Assembly (NCBI GenBank): GCA_030528965.1
Contig: JAUMXS010000036.1
Location: 1-6,346, forward strand
From: Eubacteriales bacterium
GTDB taxonomy: Bacteria > Bacillota > Clostridia > Oscillospirales > Oscillospiraceae
Reading direction: 5' to 3'
DNA length: 6,346 nucleotides
In this document: piece by piece, positions 3,421-4,206 of the stretch
Numbering within the stretch: position 1 is the stretch's first letter
How the letters are laid out: each line of letters opens with the position of its first letter
Position numbers and translations under genes: made by a program
The notes under the pieces: model-generated
The model's database searches: none
Told to the model about the DNA's origin: nothing
Seen by the model: only the letters and a program-made list of their open reading frames with translations

Positions 3421-4206
3421 ATGGATACTAAGACTCGTATACTGATTGTAGATCCCGGTGAGGATGTAAGGACATTGCTGACAGATGTCCTGAACGGGGA
3501 GCCGGATCTGGAGGTCGTCGGAACTGCTTCCAATGGACCTGAGGCACTGAACATGATCTCGGAGCATAAACCGGATGTGGTTTTGCTGGAACTCGTACTG
3601 CCGAAACTGGACGGTCTCGGTGTATTGCGGAAACTCCCGGAAATCGGACAGAAAACCACGGTGATCATTTTGTCCGGCTTTGTCAACAGTCAGGTGATCG
3701 TGGAGGCATCCGAGTTGGGTGCAGCCTATTTTATGACCAAACCCTGTGAGACTCCGGTTCTGCTGGAACGGATCCGACAATTCGGCCGCGTGGGAGATCG
3801 TATTCTTCCGCAGCTTCGTCAGGATGTCAACACAGTTCTCCGTCCGGAAGACAATCTCGAAACCGTTGTTACCGATGTGATCCACGAGATCGGCGTCCCC
3901 GCACATATCAAAGGCTATCAGTATCTGCGTGAAGCCATCATCCTGACCATCAACGATATGGATGTAATCAACGCGGTCACAAAAGTGTTGTATCCGGAAG
4001 TTGCCCGCAAATTCAACACCACACCCTCCCGTGTGGAACGTGCCATCCGCCATGCCATCGAGGTCGCGTGGGATCGCGGAGATCTGGAGACCCTCCAGCG
4101 GTTCTTCGGCTATACCGTATCGAACATCAAAGGAAAACCGACAAACTCTGAGTTTATCGCCATGATCGCCGACTGTCTTTCACTTCGTCGTCGGGCTAAT
4201 CAATAA
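3421..4206 (+). CDS. spo0A: Sporulation master regulator Spo0A with altered phosphoacceptor
   Basis: This 261-residue response regulator (Bacillus subtilis Spo0A has 267) has a receiver (about 5-123), a linker, and a Spo0A-type DNA-binding domain (about 145-261). The output domain is textbook: HEIGVPAHIKGYQYLREAI (155-173), the recognition-helix segment TTPSRVERAIRHAIEVAW (200-217), FGYTV and KGKPTNSEFIAMIAD. It should bind 0A boxes. The receiver is not textbook. The position of the phosphorylated Asp (B. subtilis D56) is E57 in LLELVLPKLDGL, encoded by GAA. One of the two acidic-pocket Asp residues is P12 (IVDPGED, with D11 retained). Switch residue S85 and conserved K107 are kept. Normal phosphorylation therefore looks impossible or much changed, and Glu may mimic the phosphorylated state. 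GGAGGGG (3410-3416) supports the ATG. The usual neighbour spoIVB is not upstream; a divergent flavoprotein gene is there instead. The family call is certain; the functional consequence is inferred. Confidence 0.95.
   Translation: MDTKTRILIVDPGEDVRTLLTDVLNGEPDLEVVGTASNGPEALNMISEHKPDVVLLELVLPKLDGLGVLRKLPEIGQKTTVIILSGFVNSQVIVEASELGAAYFMTKPCETPVLLERIRQFGRVGDRILPQLRQDVNTVLRPEDNLETVVTDVIHEIGVPAHIKGYQYLREAIILTINDMDVINAVTKVLYPEVARKFNTTPSRVERAIRHAIEVAWDRGDLETLQRFFGYTVSNIKGKPTNSEFIAMIADCLSLRRRANQ

Follow-up and report, generated by a model that had tools for sequence, protein, structure and literature searches.

The commitment of endospore formers to sporulation is taken to proceed through phosphorylation of Spo0A, whose activation is described as phosphorylation of a conserved aspartate (PMC11210211); the phosphorylated residue is D56 (PMC11115286), and one recent survey treats the presence of spo0A as the first marker of spore potential (PMC11536998). 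Among other response regulators there are aspartate-less receivers (ALR), such as RitR and ChxR, the latter with Glu at the site, in which Glu is described as the commonest replacement (26%) and the second position of the acidic pair is acidic in only 29% of cases (PMC4395418). According to the same source Glu in place of Asp can partly mimic the phosphate in receivers, and the Asp-to-Glu change alone is insufficient to activate Spo0A (PMC4395418, citing Green 1991). The Spo0A that we describe here shares with the ALR the Glu in place of Asp and the non-acidic second position, and differs in that the altered receiver belongs to the master regulator of sporulation and in that both residues, Asp and Glu, occur at the site in a single family, with switches from one to the other. 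BldM and WhiI of Streptomyces differ from it in having other output domains and in serving another kind of spore. Like it, they are atypical response regulators that act in spore development (PMC4125116). Bacterial pseudo-receivers (PsR) resemble it in missing catalytic residues, in the loss of the second acid (DD2), which binds the metal directly and is replaced by a non-acidic residue in about 80% of them, and in the shift away from Phe at position K+2, a Phe that tilts CheY toward its inactive form (PMC12632262). However, the family to which our sequence belongs keeps the conserved Lys, the conserved S/T and, mostly, the aromatic residue at K-3. Pseudo-receivers are already known, including those that bear Glu, and what appears new is their occurrence as a natural Spo0A: the word Spo0A has zero occurrences in the main text of the 2025 pseudo-receiver review (PMC12632262), and a literature search over titles and the beginnings of abstracts, with subscription journals largely outside its scope, found no natural Spo0A of this kind.

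The window, i.e., the whole stretch of 6,346 nucleotides analyzed here, corresponds to positions 1–6346 of contig C34 of genome G000, an assembly of 1.25 Mb in 167 contigs that is 71% complete. Its spo0A gene (3421–4206, plus strand) is a single open reading frame of 261 aa and the only Spo0A found in this genome. On the minus strand before it are a YbaB/EbfC-type gene and dnaX, followed by a large bacterial SRP RNA (2147–2412, minus strand, Rfam RF01854) located between dnaX and the upstream neighbor of spo0A, an FMN reductase gene (2562–3188) on the opposite strand to spo0A. After spo0A a pattern scan indicated a possible terminator stem (4254–4268, plus strand), and cysS and a hexapeptide transferase gene are found on the minus strand. 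In several relatives (for example at G054:C13 and G037:C145) a SpoIVB match lies immediately upstream of spo0A, at the place that the FMN reductase gene occupies in the window. The window protein scored 307.5 bits against the NCBIfam model TIGR02875 (spore_0_A, cut-off 200), and Pfam delimits in it a Response_reg domain (residues 7–119, 3439–3777, plus strand) and a Spo0A_C domain (residues 150–252, 3868–4176, plus strand; 156.4 bits, cut-off 25). By sequence it is a Spo0A, which shares with the canonical proteins of Bacillus subtilis and Clostridioides difficile the order of domains, the TIGR02875 match, the S/T and Lys of the receiver and a 0A core upstream of the gene, and has a DNA-binding domain 59–67% identical over the aligned part to the solved Spo0A DNA-binding domains. 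Canonical phosphate-activated Spo0A it is not: both the phosphoacceptor Asp and the second metal acid are absent.

The pocket of the receiver, a domain predicted to be well folded, reads D11-P12-G13-E14, E57, S85 and K107-P108-C109, all of it encoded on the plus strand. In the alignment to solved Spo0A receivers E57 (GAA, 3589–3591) falls on the phosphoacceptor Asp and P12 (CCC, 3454–3456) takes the place of the second of the paired acids, while the first acid DD1 (D11, GAT, 3451–3453), the conserved T/S (S85, TCC, 3673–3675) and the conserved Lys (K107, AAA, 3739–3741) are kept. The acidic pair with an Asp to phosphorylate is hence missing (E57, D11-P12) from a protein that is a receiver by Pfam and by fold, the combination by which aspartate-less and pseudo-receivers are recognized. 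These residues and their coordinates had been read correctly in the first-pass annotation, as confirmed by the codons and by the alignment, and the DNA-binding domain that it called canonical is intact judging from Pfam and from the identity to solved domains. Among 59 copies from the window's family (see below) the kept residues are nearly invariant, with D at position 11 in 57, S or T at 85 in 57 and K at 107 in all 59. Other positions are family-typical. E14 (3460–3462, plus strand), two residues past the missing acid, is E or D in 51/59 copies, where the class has mostly K or R; C109 (3745–3747, plus strand), i.e., position K+2, is C in 48/59, against F in 65 and C in 6 of 109 class sequences; and an aromatic residue is present at T+2 (F87) in 55/59 and at K-3 in at least 51/59.

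To see how far this pocket extends we used several sets of relatives. The family set comprised the best copy from each of 54 genomes of 54 genera (the window's own, 52 relatives and one from the class-wide sample), and the 59 copies mentioned above are these plus five second copies, weaker and more distant second copies being left out. Position 12 was acidic in none of the 54 best copies, and site 57 was D in 46 and E in 8. Among the 120 homologs listed out of 8000 scored (window's own protein included) position 12 was likewise never acidic, and site 57 was D in 61 and E in 59. The best 80 of 585 named genome loci had Asp at position 12 in nine cases, with D in 62 and E in 18 at site 57. Named relatives with Glu57 include Flavonifractor sp. 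An100 (L068) and Pseudoflavonifractor sp. 60 (L071). Altogether 287 loci were collected, of which 280 gave a Spo0A; of the remaining seven, four encode regulators of other kinds and three are loci of sporulation genes. In contrast, a control sample of 109 Spo0A-type matches from other orders of the class (three of them second copies, weaker or partial matches being set aside) had the canonical D-D-D pocket in 82 and Asp57 in 100. In this sample all six Glu57 proteins were without the second acid, versus no Glu among the 92 that have it, an association that amounts to about two events because the six proteins fall in two family codes. Absence of the second acid is then a trait of the family, and the Asp-to-Glu replacement a repeated further step. 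The first-pass annotation had raised the question of whether E57 and P12 are clade-wide; the loss of the second acid is, in 54 of 54 genomes, but site 57 is mixed, and close relatives have both D and E rather than D throughout.

Some more distant sequences have pockets of other kinds. The 32 sequences from other families of the same order are mixed (two acids in 20, D-D-D in six), with Asn and Glu among the residues at site 57. Eight sequences from these families (L119, L143, L154, L155, L161, L167, L171, and L172) have Asn at the phosphosite, and five of the eight retain Asp or Glu as the second of the paired acids; here the pocket has taken another path. Four genomes (G007, G008, G035, and G061) yielded a divergent, Spo0A-like class (L301–L306) whose pocket reads E-D-D-T-K and which has an ILDLELH-like motif. 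Within the window's family all 59 closer copies have D or E at site 57, a statement restricted to these copies because two distant second copies (L297 and L307) have Gly or Ser there.

The order in which the pocket changed was reconstructed on trees built with the pocket columns masked, both with many weakly supported forks. One has 296 rows (without identical sequences and the fused duplicate P0002, and with every sixth canonical sequence as the only ones from the class); the other has 87 rows and a better model, leaves out four second copies, takes in only the Glu-bearing ones of the named loci and is enriched in Glu. Over the 296 rows the second acid needs six changes and site 57 needs 28. 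Parsimony assigns 11–16 D-to-E steps to branches that lack the second acid and two to those that have it, as well as 5–10 E-to-D reversals and one D-to-N change where the second acid is absent. However, the branches without the second acid are longer in total (77.1 vs. 33.5) and the D-to-E rate is for this reason only about 2.4–3.5 times higher on them. On the 87-row tree D and E replace each other 17 times, with at least nine of these changes forced by well-supported branches, and the D-bearing P0076 and the E-bearing L035 are sisters; a single Glu clade is rejected (p-AU 1e-7). Changes away from Asp in the absence of the second acid led to Glu in 11 of 12 or 16 of 17 cases, when only two of the eight single-base substitutions that alter the residue of an Asp codon would do so (binomial 2e-6 or 3e-9, on parsimony counts and with a null that assumes equal rates and independent events). 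This excess of Glu argues against neutral decay of site 57. In the simplest account, the loss of the direct metal ligand would have come first and freed the phosphosite, which stayed a carboxylate.

Over the alignments (L170 and L160 left out) the DNA-binding domain varies less in the window's family than in the 82 canonical class members (0.62 vs. 1.03 bits of entropy), whereas the receiver is more variable (2.01 vs. 1.74 bits). The TGTCGAA core is a target sequence of Spo0A. An exact match to it is located at 3265–3271 (plus strand), 156 nt upstream of the start codon of spo0A, and in 35 of 58 family loci the same core lies in the 300 nt that precede spo0A, compared to a mean of 2.5 in shuffled sequences. 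It is present in five of the nine family loci with E57, and over the named loci in 45 of 80 (3.4 in shuffles), including 11 of the 18 with E57. The case for a 0A box, an element named also in PMC11210211, rests on this family statistic because TTGTCGAA, searched along the entire window with one mismatch allowed, is not found above chance (6 vs. 5.5). The core at 3265–3271 is likely an autoregulatory site, judging from these sequence matches. Its position is mostly 100–250 nt upstream in the window's family and mostly 44–75 nt in the class loci (30 with enough upstream sequence).

An AlphaFold2 model of the window Spo0A (49 sequences, mean pLDDT 86.3, pTM 0.51) gave a well predicted (beta/alpha)5 receiver, with block means of 91–98 pLDDT for residues 11–120, then a low-confidence linker (126–143) and a helical DNA-binding domain. 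The nearest solved folds were Spo0A domains and other receivers. The model lies at 0.7 and 0.8 Å from two chains of the phosphorylated Spo0A 1qmp, at 2.1 Å from the third and at 0.9–1.5 Å from the listed chains of 5wq0, the distances to 1qmp carrying no weight as to the active state.

Sporulation genes are present in the same genome. G000 has a full-length SpoIVA (662.6 bits, over the cut-off) and a full-length SpoIIE (335 bits, under a cut-off that none of 99 genomes reaches). In this 71% complete assembly SigG proper was not found and SpoIVB only as a 31-residue fragment, which given the incompleteness is indistinguishable from missing sequence. Over the window's family SpoIVA was found in 48 of 52 genomes with Spo0A and in one of eight without; over all relatives the figures are 79 of 85 and three of 13 (Fisher p 1.3e-7). 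In this tally, made by hand, “without Spo0A” means a best match weaker than E 1e-40; G070, which has a 104-residue piece, was scored with Spo0A, and G098 was scored without although it holds a distant Spo0A-like copy. Sixteen named genomes (13 with Glu57 and three with Asp57) gave a SpoIVA match in 15 and one over the cut-off in 14, the exceptions being two Glu57 genomes, one with no match and the other with a 62-residue piece. The first-pass annotation suggested that the host may not sporulate in the usual way; that it has left sporulation is not supported, given the full-length SpoIVA and SpoIIE and the tendency of Spo0A and SpoIVA to be retained or lost as a pair among the relatives. Of the sporulation genes that the annotation proposed to look for, SpoIIE was recovered and SigG proper was not found. 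Four other receiver proteins were found in G000, all of which keep the two acids and the Asp. As far as these four show, it is the Spo0A of the window's family that is altered and not two-component signaling at large, a general loss of which they speak against in this host. Four HisKA kinases were found in G000, three of them close to a regulator on the same contig by their coordinates. The fourth, on contig C46, adjoins a candidate gene that we take to be YycH-like, as with WalK.

We consider it somewhat more probable than its negation that the window encodes a true Spo0A with a family-wide pseudo-receiver, one that likely works without aspartyl phosphorylation and is still tied to the sporulation genes. 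The receiver is without the canonical phosphorylation pocket, as the first-pass annotation had read it, and relatives share the pattern; E57 co-occurs in the family with the missing DD2, with Cys for Phe at K+2 and with the aromatic T+2. The carboxylate at 57 would pair with Lys107 and Ser85 and so hold an active-like shape, with the receiver resting in a dimer-competent shape. Metal-dependent phosphate transfer to residue 57 would be absent in the E57 forms, and the residue would act as a plain carboxylate at which Asp and Glu are interchangeable, given that they swap between close sisters. Since D and E replace each other in this way (P0076 and L035), phosphate independence is likely for the family's D forms as well. 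How active Spo0A is would depend mainly on its abundance, through 0A-box autoregulation, and on partners binding to the receiver, and the output would still be entry into sporulation. On these sequence patterns the sampled family likely controls sporulation without phosphorylating Spo0A. However, 46 of the 54 family genomes still have Asp57, which counts against a phosphate-free reading, as do the second Spo0As with a canonical pocket in G002 and G038 and the reported failure of Asp-to-Glu by itself to activate Spo0A (PMC4395418, citing Green 1991). A more far-reaching version can be put forward tentatively, as a possibility that we would not bet on: that the whole gut and rumen family enters sporulation without Spo0A phosphorylation, its ancestor having lost the metal site, the phosphosite having turned into a plain carboxylate, now Asp and now Glu, and the receiver being read by a new input at residues typical of the family, Cys109 and Glu14 among them.

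The main rival to a pseudo-receiver is a rebuilt metal site, in which E14 would supply the missing ligand, the D57 members would be phosphorylated and the E57 members would be phosphomimetic and always on. Such a site is possible because 42 of the 49 family copies that have Asp57 and lack the second acid are acidic at position 14, a position where, as mentioned, acids prevail in the family and K or R in the class. Glu14 opens helix 1 in the AlphaFold2 model, being its first residue, and an acid at 14 is also found in three of the six Glu57 proteins of the class. However, position 14 is non-acidic in the other seven of those 49 copies and in eight of the 17 named loci that combine E57 with a missing second acid, and the class proteins that have lost the second acid and kept D57 have no acid there in any of eight cases. 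The exchange of D and E between sisters is moreover something that a phosphate switch should not allow. Weakened by these copies without an acid, the rebuilt site seems to us unlikely.

It is also conceivable, with a rather low probability in our view, that the receiver reads a different direct signal (a small ligand, a protein partner or the redox state at C109) and that E57 is merely structural. The family-typical C109, aromatic T+2 and E14 would fit this idea, and partner binding and direct regulation are among the possible mechanisms described for pseudo-receivers (PMC12632262). However, these substitutions may be purely compensatory, and the candidate partner or ligand is hypothetical. 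We give little credence to a division of labor, by which another Spo0A of canonical type, or a response regulator, would pair with this one and have taken over phosphate control. In two genomes the first copy lacks the second acid and a second, more distant Spo0A (L170 in G002 and L295 in G038) does have the canonical D-D-D pocket, and four others have the divergent E-D-D-T-K class described above. But in G000, at 71% completeness, one Spo0A was found and no second, so that the spare paralogue beside a normal Spo0A that the first-pass annotation allowed for is not borne out, and the second copies of two other E57 genomes (G015 and G036) are also without the second acid; this comparison covers 16 weaker matches among those listed.

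Similarly little can be said for decay, i.e., relaxed constraint on a Spo0A whose host lineages are abandoning sporulation, which we regard as very unlikely. The receiver is indeed more variable than in the canonical class members, and some cultured relatives have been described as non-sporulating. One of these is Intestinimonas massiliensis, presumably a member of the window's family (PMC6341035), as is the type strain of Oscillibacter valericigenes, for which all the sporulation sigma factors are nevertheless reported (PMC3558957). Decay is at odds, however, with the Lys kept in 59 of 59 copies, with D or E at site 57 in all of them, with the stronger conservation of the DNA-binding domain compared to the class and with the co-retention of SpoIVA. 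As to the 16 genomes without a SpoIVA match, ten are also without a clear Spo0A, and five of the other six are only 63–86% complete. Finally, the possibility that the two codons are errors of sequencing or assembly, for all that the window comes from a fragmented assembly, can be dismissed, the miscall at codon 57 that the first-pass annotation had considered included, because independent relatives share the residues (P0003, an independent protein 85% identical to the window Spo0A, has E57 too, with S12).

The family offers a natural series, in which the second acid is gone and Asp then changes to Glu and back, for testing how a receiver becomes a pseudo-receiver. If its Spo0A cannot use the phosphate switch, the search for its sporulation kinases would be misdirected. 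Another input must then control sporulation in these bacteria, and where laboratory cultures show no spores, the reason may be the absence of that input.
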